From positions 1-45,250 of the forward strand of contig NZ_BJDI01000020.1 of assembly GCF_005405065.1 (NCBI RefSeq): 45,250 bases of DNA, in the 5' to 3' direction. The stretch comes from Lactiplantibacillus nangangensis (lineage in GTDB: Bacteria; Bacillota; Bacilli; Lactobacillales; Lactobacillaceae). The notes beneath the pieces are model-generated. The model was given only the letters and a program-made list of their open reading frames with translations. It did not search any database and had not been told where the DNA came from. The translations under genes and the position numbers were made by a program. Positions 7,943 through 41,668 of the stretch are shown piece after piece (the stretch's first letter is position 1; every line of letters begins with the position of its first letter).

Positions 7943-8097
7943 TAGCGCAGGGTGGACTGGCTGAGGCTCAGTGGTGAAATTTTACTTAGGCGGGCGGTTT
8001 TTCCCGGCTTAGTAAAAGCCCAGCTTGCGAGACCGCATTTTGGCTCGCAACTGTGGCCACCACGTTCCAGCCTCAGCCGGACCACCCGGAGCGGCAA
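7943..8097 (-). repeat. Intergenic repeat family B, copy B1
   Basis: Strand gives the orientation in which the element begins with TTGCCG. P1 GTGGTCCGGCTGAGGCT pairs with AGCCTCAGCCAGTCCAC. Conserved motifs are GGAACGTGGTGGCCAC and AAATTTCACCACTGAGCC. The inner hairpins are GCGAG-N-CTCGC and ACTAAGCCGGG/CCGCCTAAGT. The element ends 11 bases after the EamA stop, so the EamA transcript reads it before the terminator. Confidence 0.88.
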
Positions 8098-8108
8098 TCA
8101 ATCGAAAA

Positions 8109-9038
8109 TCACGGATGCTCACGGAAATCTGAAGCCGCACGATCATTGTGGCGCTGACCAATGGCTAAAATGAACACGGTGCTGATAATCAGCAGACTGC
8201 CGAACACATCCAACCATTCAAAGCTAACGCCTAAGAGGGCGACGGCAATGACGGTCGCGGATAACGGTTCAAACGCATCGAGTAGACTGGCAACGGTCGG
8301 TTGAATATATTTCAGACTTTGTAAGAAGAATAGAAAGGCTAACAAAGTCCCAAATAGCACGACAAAGCTTAATTTGCTAATGTTGCCAAGCGTTAATGGC
8401 ACGTGGATACTCCAGAACGGCTGAATGCAGTTGAAGAGAATCCCGCCGAGTAGCATCGACCAAGTATTCACGGTCATCGCACTGTATTTGGTCAGTAATT
8501 TGGCCGGCATCAACGTGTTGGTCGCGGAGGTCACCCCTGAAAGGAGTCCCCAGATCAATGCCCAGCCGGAAATGACTAATGCGGCGGGATTACCATGAGT
8601 CACCAGTAAAAATGCGCCGATGATTGCTAACAAAATGGCGAGCCCTTCCGAACGAGTCGGCCATTGCTGATGCGCAATGACTAACCAGAGTGCGATAAAA
8701 ACCGGACCGGTGAACTGTAAAATAGTCGCGGTTGCCGCATTACTCGCTTCAACAGCTAGAAAATACGTGAATTGAACCGGCATTAATCCTAGCAAGGTGT
8801 AACCGGCAACTTGTAATAAGTCGCTCGGATGGTGCCAAATTGACCAGAGATCAATTTTAGTCACGAGGCTGATGAGCAATAAACAAATTCCAGCGCCTAG
8901 CATGCGGATGCCGGTTAGCCAAATCGAGTTGATGTCGGTCGTATCAAAGAGCGTCTGCGCGATGGCGCCTGAGACACCCCAAAAGGTGGCACTGACGCTA
9001 GCAAGCAAAATGCCTTTGATTTCGTGTGTCGTTTCCAT
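8109..9038 (-). CDS. EamA/DMT family transporter
   Basis: The 309 aa membrane protein has about ten hydrophobic helices arranged as two EamA repeats. The first repeat starts at GILLASVSATFWGVSGAIAQ and the second at ISGWALIWGLLSGVTSATN, each about 140 residues long. DMT carriers of this type usually export amino acids or related metabolites. The start is the ATG at 9038, with GGGAGG eight bases upstream; an in-frame ATG further out (9059) is inside an inverted repeat. The gene follows the PanE-like gene by 73 bases without a clear terminator, so it may share the isoleucine T-box control. Its substrate is not known; a branched-chain amino or hydroxy acid is an attractive guess. Confidence 0.85.
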   Translation of the reverse strand: METTHEIKGILLASVSATFWGVSGAIAQTLFDTTDINSIWLTGIRMLGAGICLLLISLVTKIDLWSIWHHPSDLLQVAGYTLLGLMPVQFTYFLAVEASNAATATILQFTGPVFIALWLVIAHQQWPTRSEGLAILLAIIGAFLLVTHGNPAALVISGWALIWGLLSGVTSATNTLMPAKLLTKYSAMTVNTWSMLLGGILFNCIQPFWSIHVPLTLGNISKLSFVVLFGTLLAFLFFLQSLKYIQPTVASLLDAFEPLSATVIAVALLGVSFEWLDVFGSLLIISTVFILAIGQRHNDRAASDFREHP

Positions 9039-9050
9039 TAGTACGTCCTC

Positions 9051-9094
9051 CCAAGTCAAACTGTCTAATCATCATTGTAACTGATTTGACTTGG
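9051..9094. repeat. Inverted repeat before the EamA gene
   Basis: CCAAGTCAAA (9051-9060) and its perfect complement TTTGACTTGG (9085-9094) are separated by 24 bases. There is no T-run, so it is not a terminator. It could be a regulator site for a private EamA promoter or an intercistronic mRNA hairpin. Confidence 0.6.
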
Positions 9095-9111
9095 AAAAGG
9101 GGATTTAAAAA

Positions 9112-10095
9112 TTAAGCCGTGGCGGCATCCGTTGTGGTTTCCGTAGTCGCTGCCGCTTGCCGGGTCGTTTCTGCGAGGTGGACTAAGTGGGTCAAGAAGG
9201 CGTGCGTCTTCGCTTGATAGTGGTACTTTTGGCCCAGATTAACGAGGTAACCGTTGATATAGTCGACTTCAGTTGGCCGATTGTGCGACATATCTTGATA
9301 CATTGATGGGTAGTGGAGCGGATTCGCAACTTTGCTGACATAGTTTACGGAGGCCAATTCTTCGGCACGTGTATTCAACATAGTGACACCGTCCCGCTCG
9401 CAAACATCGTAAGCTTCATTGATCAGCTGTTTGCTGAGTTCATCAGCACCTGGGTACGCGGCATATTCGCCCATCGTGATTTCAAAAAGCGTGCAAAGGG
9501 TATTGACGACGGAATTGAAAACAACTTTTGCGAGCAAGGTACCGCGGAAATTAGTTGTCAGTTTAGGATTAAATTGACATTTTTCCAGTTCGGCAACGAC
9601 ACGGTGGGTCATCTCGTCTGGTTGTTCGGTGTAGTTAGCGAGATTCATCGTGCCAGCACCGCGCGCGCCGATGAAGTCGACGTCGCCAGGGCCATTCAAA
9701 ACGGTCGCAACTAAGGCCGTTCCCGCCAAAACTTTATCTGGTTTGAAATACTGTAATAATTTTTCCACATGGCCCATACCATTCATGCAAGTGAGCACGT
9801 ATTGTTGGTCGTTGAAACAGTGGGCGGTTCGTTTGAGAAATTCTGCCAGTTGCATCTGTTTCGTGAAAACGACCCAGACATCCGGTTGACCATGATAATC
9901 TTCTGGATAATAAACTTTGACTGGGACCAAGTGTCGGTTCTGATGATCGCGTGAAACGTAGACACCGCCCTGTTGATGCATCTTTTCCACGTTAGGTTCC
10001 CAAGTATCGACAAAATCGACCTGATTGCCAGCTTCTTGTAATAAAACGCCGTAACGTAATCCCATGGCGCCTGCGCCGAGTACTGTAAAATGCAT
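9112..10095 (-). CDS. PanE-like 2-oxoacid / ketopantoate reductase
   Basis: The 327 aa NAD(P)H-dependent reductase is of the ApbA/PanE family. The N-terminal Rossmann loop is VLGAGAMGLRYG (residues 5-16). The catalytic Lys region AKVVFNSVVNTL lies in the middle, with the family's helical C-terminal domain after it (PSMYQDMSHNRPTEVDYINGY). Either ketopantoate or branched-chain 2-oxo acids may be the substrate. Lactococcal PanE is a D-hydroxyisocaproate dehydrogenase, and the Ile-specific T-box found upstream here favours branched-chain metabolism. The start at 10095 is chosen because AAAGG is about 12 bases upstream; the ATG at 10107 abuts that site too closely. Confidence 0.85.
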   Translation of the reverse strand: MHFTVLGAGAMGLRYGVLLQEAGNQVDFVDTWEPNVEKMHQQGGVYVSRDHQNRHLVPVKVYYPEDYHGQPDVWVVFTKQMQLAEFLKRTAHCFNDQQYVLTCMNGMGHVEKLLQYFKPDKVLAGTALVATVLNGPGDVDFIGARGAGTMNLANYTEQPDEMTHRVVAELEKCQFNPKLTTNFRGTLLAKVVFNSVVNTLCTLFEITMGEYAAYPGADELSKQLINEAYDVCERDGVTMLNTRAEELASVNYVSKVANPLHYPSMYQDMSHNRPTEVDYINGYLVNLGQKYHYQAKTHAFLTHLVHLAETTRQAAATTETTTDAATA

Positions 10096-10134
10096 ATGTA
10101 TGACCATCCTTTAGATTGATTTAATTAAATGTGA

Positions 10135-10426
10135 TGAAAAAAGCGCCCAGCAGACGATTGTACGTCTGCCGGGCGCTAAGTGCGTGATACCACCGGTTTT
10201 CGTCAACAACTCACATTGTTGACCTCAAAACGACCCCAAATTGTTGCGAGTCGCGGCACGATAATGGGTGCAACCATTGAAGGTTATGACGATTAGGGTT
10301 AGCCTTCACGCTCACAGTCGATATTCAAATCAGGGTAACCGGTCTGCTTACACCACCTCAGACTCGCTTGACGGTCGGACTGATTTTACTGAACTGCTCA
10401 TTGCTTTTCTCATCAAATATTAATTG
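10135..10426 (-). promoter_or_regulatory. T-box riboswitch, isoleucine specifier
   Basis: The minus-strand leader has all the T-box marks. Stem I carries AGTA (10390-10387) opposite GAA-T-ATC-G, where ATC at 10322-10320 is the specifier (tRNA-Ile). The T-box sequence CCGGTGGTATCACG follows (to 10183). Last is an intrinsic terminator with GCGCCCGGCAGACG/CGTCTGCTGGGCGC arms and a U-run near 10140. Uncharged tRNA-Ile should stabilise the antiterminator and allow expression of the PanE-like gene 40 bases downstream, and perhaps of EamA. Confidence 0.93.
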
Positions 10427-10432
10427 TTCCTT

Positions 10433-10461
10433 AATCTACACGCCTTTTGAAAAATTGTCAA
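10433..10461 (-). promoter_or_regulatory. Promoter of the T-box / PanE-like unit
   Basis: Consensus TTGACA (10461-10456), 17 bases, then TAGATT (10438-10433) on the minus strand place transcription start just before the T-box leader. Confidence 0.8.
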
Positions 10462-10515
10462 CGCTGGACTTCAATTTCTTAAGAATCTTCGGCAACGACC
10501 GATTGAAATGACCGT

Positions 10516-12684
10516 TTAAAGGTTAGTTGACTTAGGATTCTTTTGTAAGGCCTTGATGACGGCGTTTAGGTTACTGTCGAGGGTTAGGGGCGTCACTTGA
10601 CCAAAACGTTGTTGCAGAATTTGTTGGGTGACCAAGCTGAACTGGCCGTGTAGCTGTGGCCAGTATTGATCGACCCGGGTCGCATAAACGCTTAAAGTTT
10701 GACTAGCCGCACGAGGTAATTGGTGCTCGAACCAATGTTGTAATTGTTGATAACTCTGCGACGGGGTTCGCCAAGGTCGTTGCCAACTAATGAGTCTTAG
10801 CCAAACGTGGTAACGGCGCAACCAAAGCGTCGTGAGACCACCGATGAGGCACAACCCAAGTAAACTCGGCCATAGCCAAGGTAGGGCCGTTGTCCGGTTG
10901 GTCTTTTTAATGGCTTTGGGTGCGGCGGGACTGCTGGTTGTTGATTGTTCTGAAGAACTGCTGACATTGGTGCTGGGGCTACTGCTGCTAACACTGCTAG
11001 ACTGTTGAGAACTGCTGTTTGTTTTAGCGGTTGCTTTCGGCGTGGCTTTTTTGAGTCCTGGATTCTGATAGCCGGGGGTTGGATCAAATGGTACCCAGCC
11101 AATTCCTGTAAAGTAAACTTCGGCCCACGAGTGGGCATTTGAATTCAAAATTGAATAATGGTAGCGGCCGTCTTTGGTCTTTTGACCGCGAGACCCGCCG
11201 GTGAACCCTTGGGCCCAACGTGCGGGAATCCCAATTTCACGCAACATGACGACGAGTGCGGTTGAAAAGTTATCACAATAGCCGCGTTGGCTAGTGAACA
11301 GGAAGTAATCCACGTAGTCACGGTCGTTGGGGGTCGCGGGCGTATCCATCTTCGTATAAGTAAAGCGGTTATCATTTTTTAAATAACTGAGCAACGCCTG
11401 TACTTTGGCATACTGCGTTGGGGCCGTTTTTATCAGGTTTTCGCTGAGTATTTTGACGCGATTGGGCACTTCTGCCGGGAGATCGGTTTCGGACTCATCG
11501 AGTTCCTCGGTCGGCTCACCGGTTGCAGCTTTCAACTGGGCCGCCGTATATTGTTGCGGTTGGAACGCATAGTTGAGCTTGGTGAGCGGCTGCTTGCTGA
11601 GATTGATGTAAAGCCGTCCACGTTGCTTGGCATAGCCAATACCATGCCGTTTTTGCTGCGACTTGCTCACGGCCCAAGTGGTCCCACCATAACTGACGGG
11701 GACGTAGGTTGCAGTCGCTGCTAGGTTTACTTGGATGGCTTGTTTAGGGCTCGTTGGCGTTTGCAAATAGCCAGAATCAGTCAAAGTCGGTTTGCGACTG
11801 ATCTTGGTCGACTTATCGACTTCCCAACCTTGTCCTGAATAGGTGTCACGCGTATCGACCCGCCAATAATGACTTTGACTAGCAATCACTTTTAAGGCGA
11901 CGCTATTGTCATCTTGAATCGCCCCGCCAAGCGTAGTGGTGTCTTCAGAAAAGCCGGTCCGTTTAGCAGCTGCCGCTTTCTCTAAAAAGTTATAGAAACC
12001 ATGACTACTGAGGGTATTGCGCCAAGCAACGGTTTGTTGAGATAGCTGCTTGAGTGGTTGCCGTCCCCAAGTATTGAGGGTGGTGCCAGCGAAAATTAAG
12101 GCGAGTGATAAAACGAGATAAATTGCGTTCGTCCAAGTGACCCGCGGGTGCGCGCGGACGAGCAGGAGGGCAGCCGCTAAACCAACGACGGCTGCAATTG
12201 AACTAACTTCATTACGAGTGGCAAATAACGTGACGGCTAAGAGGTAGCTGAGGCTGACCAGCAGGCTTAAATACGGTTGTTGCCAACGGACCGTTAAGAG
12301 GGTCAAGGCAATGACGAGCGCCATGATCAGGACCATACTCAGCAAAATCGGCATCATTTGGGTACTACCGGCGTTGCGAAAAGTGCTGGTTTGTTGGATC
12401 AGATTGTTCATGAAATGTTGCGCCCAATTAAACGAAAAGGCTTGTTTGAGCGGATAACTGGCGTAACAGCTGCCGATGAAGCTCGCAACAATCAATCCGA
12501 TCCAAAGCAAATCGAGTCGTGGCCACCAAGTGCCAAGTAGAATCAAGGCATTGACAAGCACGAGAAAAATTAGAATTGGCCAAGGGTGCTGGAAAGTATT
12601 GACCGTGGTATAGGTGGTTAGTGGCAGCGCCAGTAGGCCAGTGTGTAAGGCGGCCGTGAGCGCTGTTTTGACTTTTTCAGGCAT
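10516..12684 (-). CDS. Membrane transglutaminase-like protein (TgpA/DUF3488 type)
   Basis: The 722 aa product has five or six N-terminal membrane helices, an extracellular transglutaminase-like domain and another helix (ALPWLWPSLLGLCLIGGLTTLWL). A cytoplasmic DUF4129-like tail ends the protein. The triad is visible: Cys470 (RGYCDNFSTA), His518 (NAHSWAEV) and Asp534 (PFDPTPGY). A Ser-rich linker lies between the domain and the last helix. The start is the ATG at 12684, which overlaps the DUF58 stop as ATGCCTGA and has AAAGGAGG upstream. It is the last gene of the MoxR-DUF58-transglutaminase operon, a widespread trio whose biochemical role is unsettled. No terminator is visible after it. Confidence 0.9.
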   Translation of the reverse strand: MPEKVKTALTAALHTGLLALPLTTYTTVNTFQHPWPILIFLVLVNALILLGTWWPRLDLLWIGLIVASFIGSCYASYPLKQAFSFNWAQHFMNNLIQQTSTFRNAGSTQMMPILLSMVLIMALVIALTLLTVRWQQPYLSLLVSLSYLLAVTLFATRNEVSSIAAVVGLAAALLLVRAHPRVTWTNAIYLVLSLALIFAGTTLNTWGRQPLKQLSQQTVAWRNTLSSHGFYNFLEKAAAAKRTGFSEDTTTLGGAIQDDNSVALKVIASQSHYWRVDTRDTYSGQGWEVDKSTKISRKPTLTDSGYLQTPTSPKQAIQVNLAATATYVPVSYGGTTWAVSKSQQKRHGIGYAKQRGRLYINLSKQPLTKLNYAFQPQQYTAAQLKAATGEPTEELDESETDLPAEVPNRVKILSENLIKTAPTQYAKVQALLSYLKNDNRFTYTKMDTPATPNDRDYVDYFLFTSQRGYCDNFSTALVVMLREIGIPARWAQGFTGGSRGQKTKDGRYHYSILNSNAHSWAEVYFTGIGWVPFDPTPGYQNPGLKKATPKATAKTNSSSQQSSSVSSSSPSTNVSSSSEQSTTSSPAAPKAIKKTNRTTALPWLWPSLLGLCLIGGLTTLWLRRYHVWLRLISWQRPWRTPSQSYQQLQHWFEHQLPRAASQTLSVYATRVDQYWPQLHGQFSLVTQQILQQRFGQVTPLTLDSNLNAVIKALQKNPKSTNL

Positions 12685-14604: not shown

Positions 14605-14689
14605 TGAAAATCCCTCCGTTTTTTGGTTGAATTCAATAAGTTCAGAATACACTGTTTAGGCGCCAAAGATGACTTGGAAGACTCACTTT

Positions 14690-14728
14690 TGTAAGCGATT
14701 TCCATTATTGGCTCGAATAGCGTACAAT
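14690..14728 (+). promoter_or_regulatory. Promoter of the HAD gene with overlapping cre-like box
   Basis: TGTAAGCGATTTCC (14690-14703) matches the cre consensus at 13 of 14 positions. It overlaps a possible -35 (TTTCCA, 14699-14704), with -10 TACAAT at 14723-14728. CcpA repression of the HAD gene is likely if the site is real. Confidence 0.5.
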
Positions 14729-14761
14729 TAAGGTTGTAAAAATGTAGGAGGAGATTAGCGC

Positions 14762-15583: not shown

Positions 15584-15585
15584 TG

Positions 15586-15624
15586 ACTAAAAAAACTTCA
15601 CGATTAGCGTGAAGTTTTTTTAGT
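15586..15624 (+). terminator. Terminator of the HAD gene
   Basis: Perfect 17 bp arms (15586-15602 and 15608-15624, core AACTTCACG) enclose loop ATTAG, with a run of seven T in the right arm. Confidence 0.93.
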
Positions 15625-15646
15625 TAGGTCAGATTACAATCTAAAT

Positions 15647-15833
15647 GTCGTCTCCGATTGTCGCTGATGACATGCGGGCGTGGGACCGGGCCAAGCCTGA
15701 GGAACGTCTTGACCCTCGCCCGGAACCCTTGCCAAAACCGCAAGTGTCCCGGCCGGTCCGTGGTGTAAGACCGGGAAAACACCGCTCTAACGCCACCTTC
15801 ACGCCCGATGCCATCAGCGGCAATCTCCGACTA
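15647..15833 (+). repeat. Intergenic repeat family A, copy A2
   Basis: Ends are GTCGTCTCCGATTG and CAATCTCCGACTA. Where the other copies have GGTTG/CAACC this one has GATTG/CAATC, a compensated change; the outer pair GTCG/CGAC also matches. The second stem CGGGCGTG/CACGCCCG is again a paired variant (A3 has CGGTCGTG/CACGACCG). Hairpin CCGGTC-CGTGGTGTAA-GACCGG is intact. Unlike A1, A3 and A4 it lies after a terminator. Confidence 0.85.
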
Positions 15834-16174: not shown

Positions 16175-16219
16175 ACTTTCCAGCGAGATTTGGCACACTT
16201 ATAGATGGAAAGTGTTTTT
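16175..16219 (+). promoter_or_regulatory. Terminator-like hairpin just before the 163 aa protein gene
   Basis: ACTTTCCA (16175-16182) pairs with TGGAAAGT (16206-16213), followed by GTTTTTT. An alternative pairing ACACTT/AAGTGT shares the right arm. It ends 13 bases before the TTG start, a position typical of a transcription attenuator or of an upstream transcript's end. Confidence 0.4.
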
Positions 16220-16231
16220 TAGGAAGTGACT

Positions 16232-22454: not shown

Positions 22455-22620
22455 TTGCCGCCTGCCGGTTGCGCTCATTTAGGGCTGGAACGTGGTGGGC
22501 ACGTTTGGGAGCCATAACCCGGTCTCCCAAGCCGGCCTTTTACTAATCGGCCGGCAAAATTCGCTGCCCGCTAAGTAAAATTTCACCACTGAGCCCTAAA
22601 TGAACGCAACCTCTCGGCTA
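22455..22620 (+). repeat. Intergenic repeat family B, copy B2
   Basis: Full ends TTGCCGCCTGCCGGTTG and CAACCTCTCGGCTA. P1 GGTTGCGCTCATTTAGGGCT pairs with AGCCCTAAATGAACGCAACC. The inner hairpin is TTGGGAG/CTCCCAA, and P4 is CTTTTACTAA/TAAGTAAAA. It follows the PTS unit in sense orientation. With B3 it forms an inverted pair 297 bp apart. Confidence 0.88.
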
Positions 22621-22917: not shown

Positions 22918-23081
22918 TAGCCGAGAGGGTGGGTGTGCTTAGGGCTCAGTGGTGAAATTTTACTTAGCTGACGGTGGTTTACCGGCCGGTTAGTAAAAGG
23001 CCGGCTTTCGAGACCGCACTTTGGCTCGAAACCGTGCCCACCACGTTCCAGCCCTAAGCGCACCCACCCGGCAGGCGGCAA
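22918..23081 (-). repeat. Intergenic repeat family B, copy B3
   Basis: This copy is inverted relative to B2. P1 GGTGGGTGCGCTTAGGGCT pairs with AGCCCTAAGCACACCCACC. The inner hairpin is TTTCGAG/CTCGAAA. The ends are again TTGCCGCCTGCCGG and CTCTCGGCTA. It ends 77 bp before the first glucosidase gene. Confidence 0.88.
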
Positions 23082-23146: not shown

Positions 23147-26059
<2,913 letters not shown>

Positions 26060-27964: not shown

Positions 27965-28122
27965 TTGCCGCTTCGGGCGGACTGGCATACCGCTGGAACG
28001 TGGTGGCCACGGTTGTGAGCCAAAAGGCGGTCTCACAAGCCGGGCTCTTACTAAGTCGGGAAAAGCACCCAACTAAGTAAAATTTCACCACTGAGCAGTA
28101 TGCCAGTCCGCCCTACGCTGAA
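27965..28122 (+). repeat. Intergenic repeat family B, copy B4
   Basis: It begins TTGCCGCTTCGGGCGG one base after the stop codon of the secreted protein. P1 GGGCGGACTGGCATACCGCT pairs with AGCAGTATGCCAGTCCGCCC. P3 is TTGTGAG/CTCACAA. P4 is TTACTAAGTCGGG/CCCAACTAAGTAA. GGAACGTGGTGGCCAC is conserved. It ends 84 bases before the terminator, so it is in the 3' UTR. Confidence 0.9.
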
Positions 28123-32042: not shown

Positions 32043-32056
32043 CAGTTACCCCTTCC

Positions 32057-33249: not shown

Positions 33250-33308
33250 GAGCGCTGTTTTTATCGCTAGGATTATGCTACGATTTGAGTATTATATTAT
33301 AGTTTGCT

Positions 33309-33469
33309 TTGCCGCCTGCCGGTTGGGGCCTAAAACGCTGGAACGCTGTGGGCCATTTTAAAGCCAAAAAGCGGTCTTTAAAACTGGCCTTTTCCTAAGT
33401 CCGGGCAAAACCCACCCGCACTAAGGAAAATTTCACGGCTGAGCGTTTTAGGCCCCAACCTCTCGGCTA
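33309..33469 (+). repeat. Intergenic repeat family B, copy B5
   Basis: Ends TTGCCGCCTGCCGGTTG and CAACCTCTCGGCTA match B2. P1 GGGGCCTAAAACGCT/AGCGTTTTAGGCCCC is perfect and unlike other copies. P4 reads TTTTCCTTA-type (TTTTCCTAAGT/ACTAAGGAAAA) where others have TTTTACT/AGTAAAA, a compensated change. It faces B6 as an inverted pair 29 bp apart. Confidence 0.88.
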
Positions 33470-33498
33470 GCTAACCGTTCAACATTTTTAACTAACCT

Positions 33499-33652
33499 AA
33501 CGGCGGGTGGGCTGAAATTGGCTCAGTGGTGAAATTTCACTAGGTTGGCGTTGTTTGCCGACCTAGTGAAAGCCCAGCTTGTGAGACCGCCTTTTGGCTC
33601 ACAACTGTGGCCACCACGTTCCAGCCGATTTCAGACCACCCAGAGTGGCAAA
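33499..33652 (-). repeat. Intergenic repeat family B, copy B6
   Basis: P1 GGTGGTCTGAAATCGGCT pairs with AGCCAATTTCAGCCCACC. P4 TTTCACTAGGTCGGC pairs with GCCAACCTAGTGAAA, with compensated changes at several positions. P3 is TTGTGAG/CTCACAA. It ends 23 bases before the DUF2829 start codon, so it lies in that operon's leader in antisense orientation. Confidence 0.88.
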
Positions 33653-33675
33653 TTAATCACAATTATGGAGGAAAA

Positions 33676-33900
33676 ATGATGACATTTGAAGCAGTATTAC
33701 CCGCGTTGAAAAAAGGTCAAAAGGCCGTTCGAACTGGCTGGGAAGGGACCGAATTGTATGTGGTTTTACAACCAACCACGACCTATCAAGGTGACGTGTT
33801 GAATCCTTATTTCTTGATCAAGACCGCTGACGAAGCCTTTAGCTTATGGTCACCAACAGATTGCGATATTTTAGCCGAAGACTGGCAATTGGTCGACTAA
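33676..33900 (+). CDS. DUF2829 / Tad2-like small protein
   Basis: The 74 aa product carries the DUF2829 pattern: MTFEAVLPALKKGQKAVRTGW at the start, YFLIKTADEAFSLW in the middle and TDCDILAEDWQLVD at the end. Phage Tad2 proteins of this family bind and sequester the cyclic nucleotide signals of Thoeris (and some CBASS) immunity. Chromosomal members are poorly described. The start at 33676 has TGGAGG upstream; the longer frame from 33607 runs into repeat B6. Its stop overlaps the SDR start (TAATG), so it heads an operon with SDR, HIT and Nudix genes. Confidence 0.8.
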   Translation: MMTFEAVLPALKKGQKAVRTGWEGTELYVVLQPTTTYQGDVLNPYFLIKTADEAFSLWSPTDCDILAEDWQLVD

Positions 33901-34646
33901 TGCAATTTAGCGAGTATCAAGGCCAAACGATTCTCGTGACCGGCGCCGCTTCTGGCATCGGCTTGGCACAAACCCAAGCTTTCTTGGCGCAAGGAGCGAA
34001 CGTAATCGCCATTGATCGACAACTCCAACCAGCCGGACTCGTTAGTACCACCGCGTTAAACTACCAAGTTGCGGATGTCTGTGATGAAGTAGCGTTGGTC
34101 GCGGCAATTAAAGCGGGGGTGGCTGAACTGGGTCAACCCACGATTGTCTGCAATACGGCGGGTAAATTGGATGCGTATCGCCCGACTTTGGACACGAGCT
34201 TAACCCAGTGGCAGTCGATTTTAGCGACCGATTTAACGAGCCAATTTATTGTGACCAATACGGTTTTACCAGCGATGCTACAAGCTAAACACGGCGTTTT
34301 CGTGAACATGGCGTCGATTGCGGGGCTTGTCGCAGGTGGCGGTGGTGCGGCTTATACCGCGGCCAAGCATGCTATTATTGGCTATACGAAGCAACTCGAT
34401 TTGGATTACGCCGCCCAAGGTATTCGGGCGAACTGTATTGCCCCGGGCGCAATCGATACGCCGATGAACGCCGCGGACTTTGCGGGTGACGCGAAGATGG
34501 CTAAATGGGTCGCAAGTGAAACGCCAGCCAAACGTTGGGCTCAGCCGAGTGAAGTGGCGGACTTAACGTTATTTTTGGCCAGCAGGCACGCTGACTATAT
34601 TCATGGCACCGTCACCCCAATCGATGGCGGTTGGCTAGAAAAGTAG
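33900..34646 (+). CDS. Short-chain dehydrogenase/reductase
   Basis: The 248 aa classical SDR has cofactor loop TGAASGIG (14-21), a NTAG variant of NNAG, catalytic Ser in NMASIAG, YTAAK (Tyr-x3-Lys) and a PGAIDTPM tail. An acidic Asp after the second strand (VIAIDRQ) points to NAD rather than NADP. It resembles FabG-like 3-oxoacyl or sugar/polyol reductases; the substrate is not known. The start ATG overlaps the DUF2829 stop by one base, so they are translationally coupled. HIT and Nudix genes follow closely. Confidence 0.9.
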   Translation: MQFSEYQGQTILVTGAASGIGLAQTQAFLAQGANVIAIDRQLQPAGLVSTTALNYQVADVCDEVALVAAIKAGVAELGQPTIVCNTAGKLDAYRPTLDTSLTQWQSILATDLTSQFIVTNTVLPAMLQAKHGVFVNMASIAGLVAGGGGAAYTAAKHAIIGYTKQLDLDYAAQGIRANCIAPGAIDTPMNAADFAGDAKMAKWVASETPAKRWAQPSEVADLTLFLASRHADYIHGTVTPIDGGWLEK

Positions 34647-34655
34647 GTGAGTGTT

Positions 34656-35015
34656 ATGACGGACTGTATTTTTTGTCAACCACAACCATACGTCCTCGAA
34701 AACGAGCTGGCAGCGGCGTTTTTTGATATCCACCCGGTTAGTCGGGGCCATTTATTAATTATCCCTAAACACCATTACGCCACTTATTTCGACGTTCCGG
34801 CCGCTGATCGCCAAGCGATGGCGGCTTTGATTGACGATGCGAAAGATTATTTGGCTGCGCATTACCAGCCGGATGGGTATAATATTGGCATTAATGTTGG
34901 TGCGGCGGCTGGACAGACGGTGATGCACTGCCATGTGCATTTGATTCCGCGCTATCACGGCGATACGCCGCATCCGGAAGGTGGCATTCGTAAGATGTTG
35001 CCGGCTGAAAAATAG
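34656..35015 (+). CDS. HIT family nucleotide hydrolase/transferase
   Basis: The 119 aa Hint/HIT protein has Zn ligands CIFC at the start and the histidine triad H91-C-H93-V-H95-LIP. HIT proteins split nucleoside phosphoramidates, AMP-lysine or dinucleoside polyphosphates through a nucleotidyl-His intermediate. The start at 34656 has AGGTGAG upstream; the GTG at 34647 is inside that site. It lies nine bases after the SDR stop and 22 bases before the Nudix gene, all on one strand. Confidence 0.93.
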   Translation: MTDCIFCQPQPYVLENELAAAFFDIHPVSRGHLLIIPKHHYATYFDVPAADRQAMAALIDDAKDYLAAHYQPDGYNIGINVGAAAGQTVMHCHVHLIPRYHGDTPHPEGGIRKMLPAEK

Positions 35016-35037
35016 GATTGAGAGAAGGCACTTTTCA

Positions 35038-35604
35038 ATGACAAATGCACTAGATAAGGCTGGCCGTAAAGGCACCGTGCTAAGCAAACAACAAGTTTAC
35101 AGCGGGCCAATTTTTAAGCTGGTCAAAGAAACAATCAAGACGCCGGATGGCTTAGAAGTGGAACGCGATTTGATCGATCACGGCAATGCGGTCACGATTT
35201 TGGCGCTCACGGCGGATGACCAAGTCGTGTTAGGTTCGGAATATCGGGTCGGTCGGAACTCTGAAACAATCGGGTTGCCAGCCGGCTTAATTAACGCTGG
35301 CGAAGATCCACTGACGGCGGCTAAACGTGAATTGCAAGAAGAAACCGGCTATATTGCGCATGATAGTGAAGTGATGACGACCATCAGTTCTTCGGAAGGT
35401 TTTACGAATGAAGCGGTGAGCCTGATTTTGACGCACATCGATCCAAGTGAACACGGTGAACGTCACTTTGACCATGACGAATATGTGAATACGCAACTTG
35501 TGCCGTTGACTGACGTGATCGACTTGTTAAAAGCTGGGAAGATTCGGTCAGCCCAAGGCATCTGTGCGATTACTTGGTATTTGAATTTCATTCGGAAAGA
35601 CTAA
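35038..35604 (+). CDS. Nudix hydrolase, ADP-ribose pyrophosphatase type
   Basis: The 188 aa product has a complete Nudix box G83-x5-E89-x7-R97-E98-L-Q-E101-E102-T-G104-Y. It also has the ADPRase-type N-terminal dimer strand (YSGPIFKLVKETIKTPDG) and the SSEGFTNE loop. Such enzymes cleave ADP-ribose to AMP and ribose-5-phosphate. RBS GAGAGAAGG precedes the ATG at 35038. It is last in the DUF2829-SDR-HIT-Nudix operon. Repeat A3 begins eight bases after the stop. Confidence 0.92.
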   Translation: MTNALDKAGRKGTVLSKQQVYSGPIFKLVKETIKTPDGLEVERDLIDHGNAVTILALTADDQVVLGSEYRVGRNSETIGLPAGLINAGEDPLTAAKRELQEETGYIAHDSEVMTTISSSEGFTNEAVSLILTHIDPSEHGERHFDHDEYVNTQLVPLTDVIDLLKAGKIRSAQGICAITWYLNFIRKD

Positions 35605-35612
35605 GTGTAAAG

Positions 35613-35805
35613 TTGCCGTCTCCGGTTGCCGCTGATGACATGCGGTCGTGGGACCGGGTTAAGCCTGAGAAGCGGTCTTATCCCTCGCTCGGAACAGTTG
35701 CCAAAACCGCAATTGTCCCGACCGGTCCGTGGTGTAAGATCGGCAAAAATCAGCCGGTCAAACGCCACCTTCACGACCGATGCCATCAGTGGCAACCTCC
35801 GACTA
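35613..35805 (+). repeat. Intergenic repeat family A, copy A3
   Basis: Ends TTGCCGTCTCCGGTTG and CAACCTCCGACTA. P1 GGTTGCCGCTGATG pairs with CATCAGTGGCAACC. P2 CGGTCGTG/CACGACCG is a paired variant. P5 is CCGGTCCGTGGTGTAAGATCGG. A one-base change against A4 shifts all reading frames, arguing against a coding role. It is the 3' UTR of the Nudix operon. Confidence 0.87.
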
Positions 35806-35980
35806 TATCGTAGATTTAAGATGAATATGCATACCTTCAAAGGTAAGAAATAAGCAAAATGGGTTTTAGCGTATTTGCTCTGATTGATGAGCATAGTTGA
35901 AGGACATAAGTTTAATTAGGACTAGTTATCACAGGGACTAAAACGAATTTCAAGTTATAAAACATTTAGAAGATGAAACT

Positions 35981-36023
35981 AAAAATGCTTGCCCAATCGA
36001 AGTTGATTGAGGCAAGCATTTTT
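35981..36023. terminator. Bidirectional terminator
   Basis: AAAAATGCTTGCC pairs with GGCAAGCATTTTT, with an inner CAATC/GATTG. It ends the Nudix operon (after A3) and the thrC-HAD operon (after B7). Confidence 0.88.
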
Positions 36024-36089
36024 GAGTTATACAAATTGATTTATCAGCTAATTAGTATTAGTGGTTATAACAAATAGTTGCGGTTAATC

Positions 36090-36245
36090 GAGCGCAGGGT
36101 GGGCTGGCATGAGGCTCAGTGGTGAAATTTTACTTAGTTGGGTGGTTTTCCCGACTTAGTAAAAGCCCGGCTTGTGAGACCGCTTTTTGGCTCACAACCG
36201 TGGCCACCACGTTCCAGCCTCATGCCAGTCCACCCGGAGCGGAAA
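36090..36245 (-). repeat. Intergenic repeat family B, copy B7
   Basis: P1 GGTGGACTGGCATGAGGCT pairs with AGCCTCATGCCAGCCCACC. P3 TTGTGAG/CTCACAA encloses CCAAAAAGCGGT. P4 is TTTTACTAAGTCGGG/CCCAACTAAGTAAAA. It starts 10 bases after the HAD stop (minus strand) and precedes the terminator, the same layout as B1 and B4. Confidence 0.9.
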
Positions 36246-36255
36246 TTAGCTCAAT

Positions 36256-37059
36256 CTAAACTAGTCCGAAATACTGCTCCAAGAACACCGCCACGCCATC
36301 GGCATCGTTGTTCAAGGTGTGGTCGGTCGCGATGGCTTTGACTGCCGGAATCGCATTGTCCATGGCAACGCCGACTTCGGCAGCTTCCAACATCCCAAGG
36401 TCGTTTTCTTCGTCACCAAATGCCATCAAATTGCTGTAATCTTCGCCAAAGTGAGCGAGTAATTGTTTCAGACCACTTGCTTTATCCGTGTGTTGCGGCA
36501 AAAATTCGAGTAAATTACGACGCGATGGGACGGCATGGAATTTGGCATTGATTTCAGCGGGCAATTGATCGCGATGATCAACCGCTTTGGCCGAAGCACT
36601 GACCGCTTTACCGAAACGATCGTCTGCTGGTAAATCTTCAAAGTTAATGTCGCTAAATGGCATCAAGCCTTTCAAAAAGGCTTCATAAGGCGACTTGCCG
36701 AGGTCGACTAAGGAGTAGACTTGAGTCAAATCAATAACATCTAGCGGAATGCCGAGTTCTTTGGCATAAGCGTGGAGTGGTGCTAAATCGTCCTTGCTCA
36801 AACTGGTTCGAGCTAGAATTTCATTCGTCGCGTTCTGTTGCACGAGGCCGCCGTTAAAGGTAATCGAATAATCATCGGGTTCGGTTAAGCCGAGCTGTTT
36901 GATGAGCGGCTGGATCGCCTTAATTGGCCGACCAGTACAGAGCACGACGCGGATGCCAGCGCCATGCAGTTGTTTTAGGACGGTTTCGTTGCGCGGCGAA
37001 ATCGTCTTTTCAGAAGTTAGTAGTGTGTTATCTAAATCCAATGCAATCGTCGTAATCAT
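36256..37059 (-). CDS. Cof-type HAD phosphatase
   Basis: The 267 aa HAD-IIB enzyme has motif I ALDLDNTLL (two Asp), motif II CTGRP, Lys of motif III in DKASGLKQLL and motif IV FGDEENDLGML. The cap lies between motifs II and III. The start is the ATG at 37059, with AAAGG upstream; TTG at 37080 is less likely. It follows thrC by 21 bases in one operon. A phosphatase next to threonine synthase could act on phosphohomoserine or an unrelated phosphosugar; the sequence does not say. Confidence 0.88.
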   Translation of the reverse strand: MITTIALDLDNTLLTSEKTISPRNETVLKQLHGAGIRVVLCTGRPIKAIQPLIKQLGLTEPDDYSITFNGGLVQQNATNEILARTSLSKDDLAPLHAYAKELGIPLDVIDLTQVYSLVDLGKSPYEAFLKGLMPFSDINFEDLPADDRFGKAVSASAKAVDHRDQLPAEINAKFHAVPSRRNLLEFLPQHTDKASGLKQLLAHFGEDYSNLMAFGDEENDLGMLEAAEVGVAMDNAIPAVKAIATDHTLNNDADGVAVFLEQYFGLV

Positions 37060-37080
37060 GACAAAAATCCTTTCTGCCAA

Positions 37081-38574
37081 CTAATTTAAATTTAAAATTT
37101 GTTTAATCGTGGACCCCATGCCTGCCGTTTCAGTAACTTTGTTGTGACGGACGGGGGCATCCCGCAAGTTTTCGACCGTTGCTGGAATCGGTGTCTTGAT
37201 CAAGTCGTGGAGTTGATCAACGGCAGCGAGTCCGTCAACGGTGACGTCTTCACCAGTAATCGCAGTCAGGACGGCTTGTGGGAACTTATACGGACTAGCC
37301 GTTGAAACGACCACCATTGGCCGCTGGTCCTTCGTGGCTGCCTGGTACTGCTTGGCAACGGCGGAAGCGACCGCCGTATGCGGGTCAATCGTGTAATGGT
37401 GCCGCGCATAAAGATGATGAATCTCGTATTGGTCTTGGCCTTCCGTAACGAAGCCTGCCCAGAAGTCTTTGATGGCTTGACGCATGGCTGGTGACAAGCT
37501 GTACTGGCCGGTCGTCTTCAGGTCAGCCATCAAGCTGGCGGTTTGAACCGGATCTTCACCAGTTAAATAGAAGATTAAGCGTTCTAAGTTGCTGGAAACG
37601 AGAATGTCCATCGATGGTGAACTGGTTAAATAAAAGTCGCGGTTTTTATTATAAACGCCGGTATTAAAGAAGTCGGTCAACACGTTATTCCGGTTGGACG
37701 CACAGATCAGCTTGTGAATCGGCGTGCCGAGTTGTTTGGCGTAATAGCCGGCCAAAATGTCGCCGAAGTTCCCGGTTGGCACACTGAAGTTGACTTCATC
37801 GCCGTTTTTGATTTGGCCTTGCTTGATCAGTTGCGCGTAGGCATAGACGTAGTAGGCCACTTGTGGGAAGAGCCGGCCGATATTGATCGAATTGGCACTT
37901 GAAAATTGGAACTGGCTGGCGGCCAACTTTGCGTGTAAGTCGGGGTCGTTGAGCAGTTCCTTGACCTTGGTCTGTGCTTCGTCAAAATTACCATTGATGG
38001 CGACAACGTAAGTATTTTCGCCTGCTTGGGTGATCATCTGTTGTTTTTGAATGGCGCTGACGCCATCTTTGGGATAGAACACGATGATGCGGGTTTGCGG
38101 GACGTCGGCGAATCCGGCCATGGCCGCTTTACCGGTATCACCGGAAGTGGCCGTCAAAATCACGACTTCACTGGCTAACTGGTTCTTTTTGGCAGCGGTC
38201 GTCATCAACTGTGGCAAAATTTGTAGTGCCAAGTCCTTGAAGGCAATCGTTGGGCCGTGAAAGAGTTCCAGATAGTACTGCTTCCCATGCTTCGTCACTG
38301 GGGCGATGGCAGGATCATCGAATTGAGTCCCGTAAGCCGCTTGAATGCAGGCTTTTAACTCGGCTTCAGTGTAGTCGGTGAAGAATAATTTCAGCACCTC
38401 GTAGGCAACTTCCTGGTAGGACATGGTTGCGAGTTGGTCGAAGTCAAAGTGGGCGGTCGGTAAGTTGACGGGGACAAATAAGCCGCCGTCGGGAGTGAGC
38501 CCTTGTAAAACCGCTTGCGAACTAGTCATAGTGCGACTTGCAGTTTCGCGGGTACTGCGATAAAGTGTTTCCAT
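37081..38574 (-). CDS. thrC: Threonine synthase
   Basis: The 497 aa PLP enzyme converts O-phosphohomoserine to threonine. The N-terminus METLYRSTRE and the PLP Lys113 in HGPTIAFKDLALQ are present, as are ATSGDTGKAA for phosphate binding, and SANSINIGRLFPQ. VPTGNFGDILAGYYAK follows as in the longer (type II) threonine synthases. The start is the ATG at 38574, with GAAAGGACG seven bases upstream; the frame is open further to 38592. It is first in an operon with the HAD gene. No T-box is visible in its short leader. Confidence 0.95.
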   Translation of the reverse strand: METLYRSTRETASRTMTSSQAVLQGLTPDGGLFVPVNLPTAHFDFDQLATMSYQEVAYEVLKLFFTDYTEAELKACIQAAYGTQFDDPAIAPVTKHGKQYYLELFHGPTIAFKDLALQILPQLMTTAAKKNQLASEVVILTATSGDTGKAAMAGFADVPQTRIIVFYPKDGVSAIQKQQMITQAGENTYVVAINGNFDEAQTKVKELLNDPDLHAKLAASQFQFSSANSINIGRLFPQVAYYVYAYAQLIKQGQIKNGDEVNFSVPTGNFGDILAGYYAKQLGTPIHKLICASNRNNVLTDFFNTGVYNKNRDFYLTSSPSMDILVSSNLERLIFYLTGEDPVQTASLMADLKTTGQYSLSPAMRQAIKDFWAGFVTEGQDQYEIHHLYARHHYTIDPHTAVASAVAKQYQAATKDQRPMVVVSTASPYKFPQAVLTAITGEDVTVDGLAAVDQLHDLIKTPIPATVENLRDAPVRHNKVTETAGMGSTIKQILNLN

Positions 38575-38696
38575 GGATGAACGTCCTTTCAATTGATTTT
38601 GTCTAAATGATACACTAAATTAGACGCGAACGGGGACGTTTACAAGAAAAAGCCCCGGACATTTCATGAATTAGACCAATTTAAATTCACGAAAAT

Positions 38697-38708
38697 GTAA
38701 CCGGTTAC
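38697..38708 (+). promoter_or_regulatory. LacI-type operator before the neopullulanase gene
   Basis: GTAACCGGTTAC is a perfect 12 bp palindrome with the CpG centre typical of LacI/GalR-family sites (TGTAANCGNTTACA-like). It lies 5 bases before the ribosome site AGAAGGAG. A MalR-type regulator is the natural candidate, but no such gene is in the window. Confidence 0.6.
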
Positions 38709-38727
38709 GATAGAAGGAGTTAACAAA

Positions 38728-40446
38728 ATGCAATTAGCAGGAATTTTACACCGGCCTGAGAGTGAGGACACGGCGATCTTAGCGGATCATCAAGTCTTGA
38801 TTCGGCTACAGACGGCGATTGATGATGTGGCGCAAGTTGAACTAGCTTATGCGGATATGTATTTGTGGCAAGAGGGCGCGCCGATGCACCATGTGGCGAT
38901 GCAAAAAGGCTTAGCCACACAGGCCAATCAATATTGGACGCTCCCAGTTGAGCTACCGACTAATCGGGCGATCTATGCTTTCAAGTTGACGGATCAAGCT
39001 GGTCAGACGATCGGTTATGGCGATGAGGGCTTCTTTGATGATACCGCCGCCAATTGGGCTGTCGCTGGTCGCTACTTCCATCTGCCTTACTTACACGTGA
39101 GTGACGCGGAATTGCCACCGGCTTGGGTCAAGCATACTGTCTGGTACCAAATTTTTCCAGAACGCTTCGCGAATGGCGACCAGACCAATGACCCTGCCGA
39201 CGTGCAACCATGGGGCCAAGGCCCGGTCAAACGTGATTCGTTCTATGGTGGCGACTTACGCGGCATCATTGACCATTTGAATGATATTGCGGCGCTAGGT
39301 GTGAACGGCCTGTACCTCTGCCCAATTTTTACGTCACCATCGAATCATAAATACGATACGATCGACCATTTCGAAATTGACCCACATTTTGGGACGAAAA
39401 AAGATTTTCAAGAGTTAGTCGATCAAGCCCATGCGCGCGGCATGAAAGTTATGCTAGACGCCGTCTTCAATCACTTTGGTGACCAATCGCCGCAGTGGCA
39501 AGACGTGATCAAAAATGGCCAGCAGTCACGCTTCGCTGATTGGTTCCACATCCATGATTGGCCAGTTGGTCGTGATGCCAAGACCGGTGAGCTGAACTAT
39601 GAAACGTTTGCTACCGGCGCAGCCATGCCGAAGGTGAATACGCAGAATCCGGCCGTTCAGCAGTATTTGATTGATGTGACGAAATATTGGATCGAACAAT
39701 ACAACATCGATGCTTGGCGTTTTGATGTGGCGGATGAAGTCGACCACGGTTTCTGGCGCAAACTCTGTGGCGCCTTGCGCGCGGTTAAGCCGGATGTTTA
39801 TTTGTTGGGCGAAGCTTGGCACAGCAGTCAGGCCTTGGTCAGCAACGGCCAGTTTGATGCGGTTATGAATTATCCGTTGACGCAGCCGATCCTAGCGTTG
39901 TTTAAGCACGAGTTAACGTTAAAAGATTATGTCGGCAAAACCAATTTACAGTTGATGCAATATCGCCAACCGAATCAGCAAGTCATGTTTAATGCCATCG
40001 ACACGCATGATACCGCGCGCTTGTTGACGGTACTGAATAACAATGTTGATCAAGTTAAAGCCGCGTTGACGCTATTGATGTTATTGCCAGGAACACCATG
40101 CTTGTACTATGGGACGGAAGTTGGCTTAGCTGGCGGACCAGACCCTGACAATCGGCGTTGCATGCCATGGCAACCAGCTGACCAAAATTTAGATATGCGG
40201 GCGTTTGTGACCAAGTTAGTCACTTGGCGGCAAAGTCAGGCTGACTTTTTAGCGGACAGCCAATTGAGTTGGCAGATTACGGCTGATGTCTTGCGGCTGA
40301 CACGTAAAACGGCTGGTCAGACGGTTTCGGGGACGTTTAACTTGGGACAAGCAGCTGTGACAGTTTCGGATAGTCAAATTGTGTTAGCTAATGGCTTGAA
40401 AGATAGTGTGCTTGCTGAAAACGGATTTGTATTGACCGTCGATTAG
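38728..40446 (+). CDS. Neopullulanase / cyclomaltodextrinase (GH13_20)
   Basis: The 572 aa product has an N-terminal CBM34-like beta domain (1-125) and a GH13 barrel. Region I is DAVFNH (244-249); region II is WRFDVADEVDH with nucleophile Asp333. The acid/base is Glu362 (LLGEAWH), and region IV is AIDTHD with Asp428. A C-terminal beta domain follows. There is no signal peptide, so it acts inside the cell on imported maltodextrins, cyclodextrins or pullulan fragments. An upstream LacI-type palindrome suggests control by maltose. Repeat A4 begins eight bases after the stop. Confidence 0.92.
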   Translation: MQLAGILHRPESEDTAILADHQVLIRLQTAIDDVAQVELAYADMYLWQEGAPMHHVAMQKGLATQANQYWTLPVELPTNRAIYAFKLTDQAGQTIGYGDEGFFDDTAANWAVAGRYFHLPYLHVSDAELPPAWVKHTVWYQIFPERFANGDQTNDPADVQPWGQGPVKRDSFYGGDLRGIIDHLNDIAALGVNGLYLCPIFTSPSNHKYDTIDHFEIDPHFGTKKDFQELVDQAHARGMKVMLDAVFNHFGDQSPQWQDVIKNGQQSRFADWFHIHDWPVGRDAKTGELNYETFATGAAMPKVNTQNPAVQQYLIDVTKYWIEQYNIDAWRFDVADEVDHGFWRKLCGALRAVKPDVYLLGEAWHSSQALVSNGQFDAVMNYPLTQPILALFKHELTLKDYVGKTNLQLMQYRQPNQQVMFNAIDTHDTARLLTVLNNNVDQVKAALTLLMLLPGTPCLYYGTEVGLAGGPDPDNRRCMPWQPADQNLDMRAFVTKLVTWRQSQADFLADSQLSWQITADVLRLTRKTAGQTVSGTFNLGQAAVTVSDSQIVLANGLKDSVLAENGFVLTVD

Positions 40447-40453
40447 TTTAGAC

Positions 40454-40646
40454 TTCCGCCGCCGGTTGCCGCTGATGGCATGCGGCCGTGGGACCGGGCC
40501 AAGCCTGAGAAGCGTCTTGCCCCTCGCCCGGAACAGTTGCCAAAACCGCAATTGTCCCGGCCAGTCCGTGGTGTAAGGCCGGCCAAAGATCAGCCGACCA
40601 AACGCCACCATCACGACCGATACCATCAGCGGCAACCTCTGGCTAG
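40454..40646 (+). repeat. Intergenic repeat family A, copy A4
   Basis: Ends TTCCGCCGCCGGTTG and CAACCTCTGGCTA. P1 GGTTGCCGCTGATGG pairs with CCATCAGCGGCAACC without mismatch. AAGCCTGAGAAGCGTC, GCCCCTCGCCCGGAA and the P5 loop CGTGGTGTAA are conserved. It lies between the neopullulanase stop and its terminator. Confidence 0.88.
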
Positions 40647-40683
40647 ATTAGTGGGTTTAGATTTTTAAGGTAGTTGAGACGTG

Positions 40684-40731
40684 AAAAGGGCCAGAACTTC
40701 TTATCAATTCGAGAAGTTCTGGCCCTTTTTT
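40684..40731 (+). terminator. Terminator after repeat A4
   Basis: AAAAGGGCCAGAACTTCT and AGAAGTTCTGGCCCTTTT form an 18 bp stem with a 10-base loop and T-run. Confidence 0.93.
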
Positions 40732-40768
40732 GAAAGGCTATTTTTTGCCTCAGCCTTATTTAAAATTA

Positions 40769-41302
40769 TTAGTTTGGATAATCAATAGCTTTAATTTCGC
40801 AATAGTCAAAGCTTCGTTGGCCGGTCAACTGGGTCATGACTTCGCCGTGAGTGATGCAGGCGATGCAGTCATAGTGTGCGGCGTACCGAGCGAAGACGGC
40901 GTTGACGCGTGCTTGGACTTCGTCGGCGGTTTCATAAGGGTAGGGGAAGTCAGCGGGGCGACTATGTGGCGTCCGTTTATATTGGGTATAGGCGCGGGCG
41001 ACTTGTCGATTGTTTTCAATTAACGTCCCGGTACGGTCGGGTTGCCATTCATGTAAGTCGAGTTCGACGGTCACTGGCACGGCAACTTGTCGAGCAATCT
41101 CAATCGTGGTCGCCATCGCGCGCGTAAAGGGTGATGTCAGGATCAATTGGACTTGTTGTAATTCCGGTTTTTGCGCACACTGCTGGGCCATTTTCACCCC
41201 AGCAGGCGTCAACCCACCCAAGTCGCGGCCGTACCCAACGTAGTGCTGATTAGTGACATCGGTATAGTCAGGTTCACCATGGCGAATTAAATAAATTTTC
41301 AA
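40769..41302 (-). CDS. Histidine phosphatase family protein
   Basis: The 177 aa product has phospho-His in IYLIRHGEPDYTD, LTPAG as the branch motif, LTSPFTRAMATT, a Glu in LHEWQPD and the second His in ITHGEVMT. It is shorter than the 224 aa family member at 16707. The start chosen is TTG at 41302 because GTAGG lies about eight bases upstream and the protein then begins KIYLIRHGEP as usual; GTG at 41320 is an alternative. The substrate is unknown. It stands alone. Confidence 0.85.
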   Translation of the reverse strand: MKIYLIRHGEPDYTDVTNQHYVGYGRDLGGLTPAGVKMAQQCAQKPELQQVQLILTSPFTRAMATTIEIARQVAVPVTVELDLHEWQPDRTGTLIENNRQVARAYTQYKRTPHSRPADFPYPYETADEVQARVNAVFARYAAHYDCIACITHGEVMTQLTGQRSFDYCEIKAIDYPN

Positions 41303-41320
41303 CTTAAAGCCTACTTTCAC

Positions 41321-41510
41321 AAATTTTTACCAAAAGCCCGACACCTAAATCGTTTAACAAAATTATCTAAGTTACAAAATTTTTTTATGGATTTAACTCG
41401 TACCAAATTGATTAAAAGCTGGGGTGTCGGTTTACGGTTATGACGCCAAAAATCACTATAAATTTATTAATTGTCAGCTTTTGAATTTTAGGGGTAACGG
41501 GGTAGTTCTT
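41321..41510. other. Gene-free stretch
   Basis: This AT-rich region upstream of the histidine phosphatase presumably holds its promoter. No convincing boxes, hairpins or frames were found. Confidence 0.4.
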
Positions 41511-41668
41511 TAGCCGAGAGGTTGGGGTCGCTGAGGCTCAGCGGTGAAATTTTTCTTAGCTGGAGGGGCTGGTCCAGCTTAGAAAAAGGCCGGCTTACGA
41601 GACGGGGTGTGGCTCGGAAACGTATCCACCGCGTTCCAGCCTCAGCGGACCCAACCGGTAGGCGGCAA
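41511..41668 (-). repeat. Intergenic repeat family B, copy B8
   Basis: Ends (minus strand) TTGCCGCCTACCGGTTG and CAACCTCTCGGCTA. P1 GGTTGGGTCCGCTGAGGCT pairs with AGCCTCAGCGACCCCAACC. P4 is TTTTTCTAAGCTGG/CCAGCTAAGAAAAA, again paired but different. The P3 loop is less conserved. It lies downstream of the small membrane protein gene, after its terminator. Confidence 0.85.

Follow-up and report, generated by a model that had tools for sequence, protein, structure and literature searches.

An intergenic repeat of Lactiplantibacillus nangangensis that looks like a family-wide mobile element with a conserved, complex DNA fold

The window considered here is the whole stretch of 45,250 nucleotides at positions 1 to 45,250 of contig NZ_BJDI01000020.1 from Lactiplantibacillus nangangensis (assembly GCF_005405065.1), whose intergenic regions carry eight copies of an imperfect palindrome, hereinafter the E modules B1 to B8, along with four A modules. 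An earlier note on this DNA, made from the sequence alone, had described the eight as elements of about 155–165 bp with one fold, variable stems and conserved loops, and had drawn them as RNA. All eight were found at the positions that it gave, and while the observation is right, the RNA interpretation appears doubtful: the object looks like a family-wide mobile repeat of the Lactobacillaceae in which a complex DNA fold is conserved. The window was searched with two covariance models, R1, built from the eight copies, and R2, a second model built from named genomes. The modules are, in order:

7496 to 7685, + strand: A module, facing B1 (R2 E 1e-10)
7944 to 8097, - strand: E module B1 (R1 167.8 bits; R2 E 5e-41)
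15646 to 15833, + strand: A module, partner not detected (R1 match at 15652, R2 match at 15651)
22455 to 22619, + strand: E module B2, facing B3 (R1 and R2 matches)
22919 to 23081, - strand: E module B3, facing B2 (R1 and R2 matches)
27965 to 28119, + strand: E module B4, no partner module detected 3' of it (R1 and R2 matches)
33309 to 33468, + strand: E module B5, facing B6 (R1 and R2 matches)
33499 to 33651, - strand: E module B6, facing B5 across a 30-bp spacer (R1 and R2 matches)
35613 to 35803, + strand: A module, facing B7 across a spacer of 287 bp with 31% GC (R1 and R2 matches)
36091 to 36245, - strand: E module B7, facing the A module at 35613 (R1 and R2 matches)
40456 to 40648, + strand: A module, 9 bp downstream of a stop codon (missed by R1 and R2 in the window)
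41512 to 41668, - strand: E module B8 (R1 and R2 matches)

Modules of both kinds are imperfect palindromes of about 155–190 bp: a long outer stem (P1) leads through an asymmetric internal loop, in which GGAAC faces TG, into a second stem and from there to a junction bearing two hairpins. For the eight E copies RNAalifold predicts 54 pairs, 27 of which have changed on both sides, and two copies folded singly reach z-scores of -8.5 and -5.8 against dinucleotide shuffles; B7 folds more stably on the opposite strand (z -10.9 against such shuffles). In a set of 97 matches from other genomes, one of them an antisense reading of another, 94.2% of the cells are paired, double changes occur in 48 of 53 pairs, and the 1230 double-changed cells compare with 351 in shuffles, none of 500 shuffles reaching that count. 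The corresponding values for 85 matches from named genomes and plasmids, mostly of other genera, are 94.4% paired, double changes in 50 of 53 pairs and 1168 double-changed cells against 325, again reached by none of 500 shuffles. These two alignments, having been fitted to the model, are biased in its favour; sliding the partners by one base lowers their pairing to 43–46%. In plain MAFFT alignments double changes form the majority of departures from the commonest pair, except in a small set, the beta modules of genome G005 (0.38). Stem pairing is kept, more than by chance, and the loop and junction bases CTGGAAC, CTGAGC and AAGCC...GTCT (picked out by eye) are conserved across genera at 56% mean identity.

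The RNAalifold consensus and the covariation in the larger sets agree with the picture of one fold with variable stems, conserved loops and preserved pairing. Two of the finer claims fared less well. The shared sequences GGAACGTGGTGG and AAATTTCACCAC are each exact in six of the eight copies, B5 and B8 having variants, and the two sides of P1, held to match always, do not: among 20 outer-stem columns, six have one to three unpaired copies and one has gaps in four. The comparison with Rfam that had been suggested brought up no known family matching the copies; at the gathering scores of Rfam 15 the window gives only a T-box and a tRNA, both away from the modules, and a search of both strands of 33250–36300 at E ≤ 1 gave no match.

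R1 scores the A modules weakly, yet these retain the fold and the GGAAC internal loop, and by eye A and E modules also have in common ends like TTGCCGCC...CGGCTA. R1 matches many A copies, two of the window (at 15652 and 35613) among them, with E values from 4e-13 to 7e-5, while R2 recovers three of the four window copies (7496, 15651 and 35613, at 1e-10 to 2e-13) and misses that at 40456, which is followed by a perfect 18-bp hairpin at 40684–40729. Family A is a distant, related version of the same module; that it is of the same kind, and that close neighbours face each other, had escaped the earlier note. Running R1 over the genome, as had also been suggested, yielded 91 matches at E ≤ 0.01 in its 2.9 Mb, with 150 of 274 candidates scored. 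The genome thus holds at least 131 modules, 89 E and 42 A, the 91 matches including two A copies and the 42 being 41 of 44 A matches (three are fragments) plus the window copy at 7496; further A copies also appear. A modules are abundant in genomes G004 and G016 too.

Under stricter filtering, with no more than 50 candidates scored in each genome, R1 finds matches in 22 of 60 genomes: 19 of 21 from the genus (L. nangangensis included), three of 16 from other genera of the family and none of 23 from other families of the order. The congeners G001 and G002 are module-free with R1 and still give zero with R2. A pattern scan of 84,980 species returned at least 111 loci, all of which, among the matches listed, are named as Lactobacillaceae genera. 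R1 confirms 42 of the 43 loci tried (39 of 40 from the scan and three of three from plasmids), the single miss, in Secundilactobacillus, being truncated at the end of its locus. The confirmed scan loci belong to Lactiplantibacillus, Lapidilactobacillus, Lacticaseibacillus, Levilactobacillus, Companilactobacillus, Liquorilactobacillus, Schleiferilactobacillus, a Candidatus Limosilactobacillus and uncultured Lactobacillus; eight Lactobacillaceae genera beyond Lactiplantibacillus carry modules, including Ligilactobacillus with a plasmid locus. A unit from G005 matches 25 plasmids (18 of Lactiplantibacillus, seven of Ligilactobacillus), no annotated gene lies under the 20 plasmid matches listed, and a plasmid search with B7 alone gave no match. 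Module-bearing plasmids include NZ_CP023773, NZ_CP016492 and NZ_CP011405, with L. plantarum, L. pentosus and Ligilactobacillus salivarius as hosts. Phages searched with two queries yielded no match. The portions of the open-access literature available to us hold no description of this repeat in Lactobacillaceae, which is weak evidence.

The modules show a marked tendency to face each other. Among neighbours less than 900 bp apart in the L. nangangensis genome, 36 of 40 are facing (21 E/E and 15 A/E), four are in tandem and none is divergent, with 59 modules having no facing partner; the facing arrangement also holds for 28 of 29 neighbours less than 1.2 kb apart at 43 loci of other genomes. 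The spacers of facing pairs range from 17 to 1105 bp, and the 26 in L. nangangensis longer than 60 bp have 31–45% GC, with only two pairs of spacers alike. In G005, 17 facing pairs (L227–L243, hand-picked from the match list) have common spacers and flanks, forming a unit of roughly 750–900 bp with two different modules and a conserved spacer, whose outermost arms, by eye, match within each copy while varying from one copy to the next. Two wider facing pairs (L274 and L278) have further modules in between, and their reading frames look ordinary by eye. The E modules are unoriented with respect to genes (37 of 89 in sense), and some modules begin only a few bases from a stop codon.

Comparison of insertion sites shows modules at places that lack them in related genomes. 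The B5–B6 pair separates promoter-like DNA from the ribosome site of the gene beside B6 (33607–33900), which codes for a Tad2-like (Thoeris anti-defence 2-like) protein (PF11195). The site is module-free in 18 of 20 congeners: the flanks are 5–76 bases apart in 16 of the 20 (five of these empty sites judged by the gap alone), and about 99 and 175 bases apart, without a model match, in G011 and G009, respectively. G017 has a pair here and G008 a single module. At the site of the A module at 7496 and B1, 13 of 20 congeners are without an R2 match, a marginal one of 18.9 bits in G002 being disregarded; this number is an upper bound, since R2 can miss A copies. Where read, this region has two stop codons with a terminator-like hairpin between them. 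G008 and G017 hold a complete pair between stop codon and hairpin, and A-like modules occur in G020, G014, G016, G009 and, weakly, G011.

One subfamily, which has burst in two relatives, bears the marks of movement. Its full units of about 385–405 bp, of which shorter derivatives exist, are bounded by the terminal inverted repeat (TIR) ACGCTTGGTGCTAGTT, giving 16-bp inverted ends. Sites joining the TIR to an E module, defined by the pattern TTTGGTGCTAGTT-N4-TTGCCGCC with up to two mismatches, number 74 in G017, 54 in G008, ten in L. nangangensis, three in G009, one in G007 and zero in the other 16 genomes. Exact target duplications of 7–13 bp accompany nine of the 20 units measured, as against 0.6% when the right flanks are swapped, and one-mismatch duplications are seen by eye in several more. 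In this subfamily the whole pair was transposed, with a stagger of 8–9 bp. However, because most E copies of L. nangangensis lack the burst-subfamily ends and modules can start near stop codons, the burst subfamily cannot explain the family as a whole.

A property that can discriminate RNA from DNA folds is the fate of one-sided changes, which in an RNA fold should persist more often as G-U than as A-C. We counted both as context-distinct events in columns whose commonest state is a Watson-Crick pair, using MAFFT alignments and RNAalifold structures, with RNase P from 30 Lactobacillaceae as the positive control (30 with loci among 61 genomes searched). RNase P gives 94 G-U to 10 A-C in sense (0.90) and 15 to 62 in antisense (0.19). 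The modules give, on the drawn and the opposite strand respectively, 20/28 and 25/13 for 38 loci mostly of other genera (38 of 85 rows, one per locus, 141–184 bases), 18/28 and 33/20 for 30 E copies taken at random from 84 in L. nangangensis, and 23/32 and 37/18 for 32 A modules (29 from L. nangangensis). Their G-U share is therefore 0.39–0.42 on the drawn strand and 0.62–0.67 on the opposite one, and all six counts differ from RNase P (p 0.0013 or less; the sequences being related, the p-values are guides, and RNase P served as the sole control). The model-fitted alignments show 76 G-U to 137 A-C events in the drawn strand (p 3.5e-5), and the other-genera alignment 71 to 107 cells, one conserved loop G-T column being left out of both; the 35 weakest rows of the 119-row alignment (A copies, antisense readings, fragments and weak matches) were omitted from the wobble and double-change counts. 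Since there is no G-U preference of the kind seen in RNase P, the stems seem to be maintained in the manner of Watson-Crick palindromes, any preference for the strand that was not drawn being modest at best, and we read the pairing as a property of DNA rather than RNA.

Taken together, we posit that the elements are probably modules of a non-autonomous, mobile, intergenic repeat of the Lactobacillaceae akin to REPINs or miniature inverted-repeat transposable elements (MITEs), with a folded DNA module as the conserved part. Such modules, lying singly or as facing pairs around a spacer, would be read through their conserved loops and Watson-Crick stems as folded DNA, either an extruded hairpin or a cruciform, the folded strand more likely being the one opposite to that drawn. 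A recombination or transposition enzyme might act in trans on this fold, as for the repetitive extragenic palindromes (REPs) or the ends of IS200/IS605 elements, and the match between the arms is probably maintained in part by repair of one from the other at replication. Tentatively, one might go further and see here a class of mobile DNA spanning the Lactobacillaceae, whose recognition signal is a large DNA fold with a three-way junction, preserved in its shape and in a handful of unpaired positions, with most of the stem sequence able to vary; this is conceivable, though we would not lean on it.

Several observations weigh against the proposal of a mobile folded DNA. In L. nangangensis, 28 of the 31 A modules examined follow a stop codon in the sense orientation, hinting at a role at the transcript level, and the opposite strand does lean to G-U, as an RNA of that strand might. 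Double changes make up 0.75–0.76 of all stem changes in the modules and 0.71 in RNase P (0.78 and 0.38 in the two G005 module types), so that this share, being alike in both, does not separate DNA from RNA, which only the G-U test does. The A module at 7496 and B1 were rejected as one unit, for the terminator-like hairpin at about 7841–7888 (by eye) separates them and argues for two insertions. A long exact duplication is missing in 11 of the 20 burst units measured, no general TIR was found in the pairs of other genera, and inverted ends and duplications are limited to the one subfamily. Among the 100 of 109 exact TIR matches listed for G017, 15 facing pairs are 134–384 bp apart and six 3.4–9.9 kb apart, with none at 0.4–3.4 kb, where a parent transposon might be expected. 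Finally, no mobilising gene was found near the motifs among 317 proteins from 153 loci. The neighbour families recurring beyond pairs of loci are an ABC transporter (five loci), a C69 peptidase (four) and a P-type ATPase (three), and the cluster with the most loci (20) seems to consist of reading frames that run through the repeats, 19 of 28 matched parts being within 250 bp of a module motif. A partner protein encoded beside the modules was accordingly rejected, those examined belonging only to ordinary families.

How, then, do other explanations accommodate these data? A structured RNA on the drawn strand would explain the strong covariation, the conserved unpaired bases and the sense placement of the A modules, but the G-U share on that strand so far below the RNase P value, the lack of orientation of the E modules and the failure to find a promoter or terminator in the unit tested at 35590–36270 leave the RNA of the earlier note without support, and we regard it as quite improbable. 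Signals of either type are also at chance level in a G005 unit. An RNA running outwards from each pair on the opposite strand fares somewhat better, given the mild G-U excess there (the same 137 versus 76 events read from the other side) and the stabler fold of B7 on that strand. However, its G-U share still falls under that of RNase P, spacers of 17–54 bp would leave little room for two promoters, and the transcript would be antisense to the upstream gene for 28 of the 31 A modules, making this reading unlikely.

Alternatively, the palindromes might be functionless as folds, their arms being matched by template switching in replication and their loops conserved merely because the copies are young. 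This would be in keeping with covariation devoid of a G-U preference, with the outermost arms of the G005 units that differ between copies and yet match, and with internal deletion derivatives that, by eye, retain both P1 arms. Arm-to-arm repair deserves to be taken seriously as a complement to the main reading: it would match the arms in the absence of selection, though it would not keep the loops alike from genus to genus. Both the loop and junction bases kept at 56% mean identity and the fold and GGAAC retained by the weakly scoring A modules speak against functionless folds; we hold these to be a lesser prospect, if one with some substance. The facing intergenic palindrome pairs with conserved ends and a less conserved spacer also recall REPINs (PMC3116915), which would have the modules moved by a Y1 transposase of the RAYT type. 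However, PF01797, the Y1/RAYT transposase family, has no match in the module-rich L. nangangensis, G008, G005 and G020, yet is present in the module-free G001 and G002. Nor is the GTAG tag enriched: GTAG/CTAC occurs within 12 bp outside either end in eight of 91 L. nangangensis matches, as against five of 91 in control windows 100–112 bp away. Moreover, Y1 elements are not known to make target duplications, whereas the burst subfamily makes them. Filing the repeat as a REPIN was accordingly rejected, for want of a Y1 match where modules abound and of the tag, and movement by a RAYT appears highly improbable.

A mobile repeat with a conserved DNA fold nevertheless has several partial parallels. 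Integron attC sites have variable stems and conserved unpaired bases and are read as folded single-stranded DNA with one strand preferred; by contrast, no cassette array or integrase was noticed for the modules, the R-box motif not having been searched for by tool. On the tentative wider reading, recognition of the folded module would resemble the principle of attC sites or REPs, at a complexity more like that of RNA. BOX, RUP and SPRITE are, like the modules, structured, intergenic and probably trans-mobilised repeats of Gram-positive bacteria, and are set apart by their size and fold as generally described. They are pneumococcus repeats named in a MITE review (PMC10969869). By the account of that review, the modules are like MITEs in being short, non-coding and intergenic, with an AT-rich spacer and, in one subfamily, TIRs and target duplications; they differ in that the conserved part is an internal module, present in several genera without those TIRs, and in that no parent transposon was seen among the TIR matches listed for G017 or among the neighbouring proteins. 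The modules share with REPINs and the REP mosaic elements (REP-BIME) a high copy number, intergenic palindromes mostly in facing pairs around a less conserved spacer and a predicted fold as single-stranded DNA (PMC3116915, PMC3733652). They differ from REPINs, by the same accounts, in their size of 155–190 bp with a three-way junction, REPIN palindromes being of about 20–60 bp, in having no Y1 transposase detected in the L. nangangensis genome and no GTAG tag, and in the target duplications of one subfamily.

Covariation commonly counts as proof of an RNA structure; here it is strong in mobile DNA that lacks the G-U signature of the RNA control. If confirmed, such repeats could pass for structured RNAs in automated screens, where the ratio of G-U to A-C offers an inexpensive filter. 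Abundant in food-associated lactobacilli, the repeat inserts itself between a gene and its promoter, as at B5–B6, or between a stop codon and a terminator, and might point to an enzyme acting on folded DNA.

A few further observations concern derivatives of the repeat and other features of the window. In L. songbeiensis, the loci L471–L475 are deletion derivatives without the inner hairpins, most of which keep both P1 arms, and a 154-bp derivative from this species retains both ends and a 9-bp duplication. The loci L068–L070 were rejected as orthologues, since their flanks differ, and are paralogous copies. In the window, the T-box leader lies at 10166–10410 on the - strand, upstream of a reading frame at 9112–10107, and two similar reading frames lie side by side at 23159–26059, apparently through tandem duplication; the first codes for a 6-phospho-beta-glucosidase (NCBIfam).

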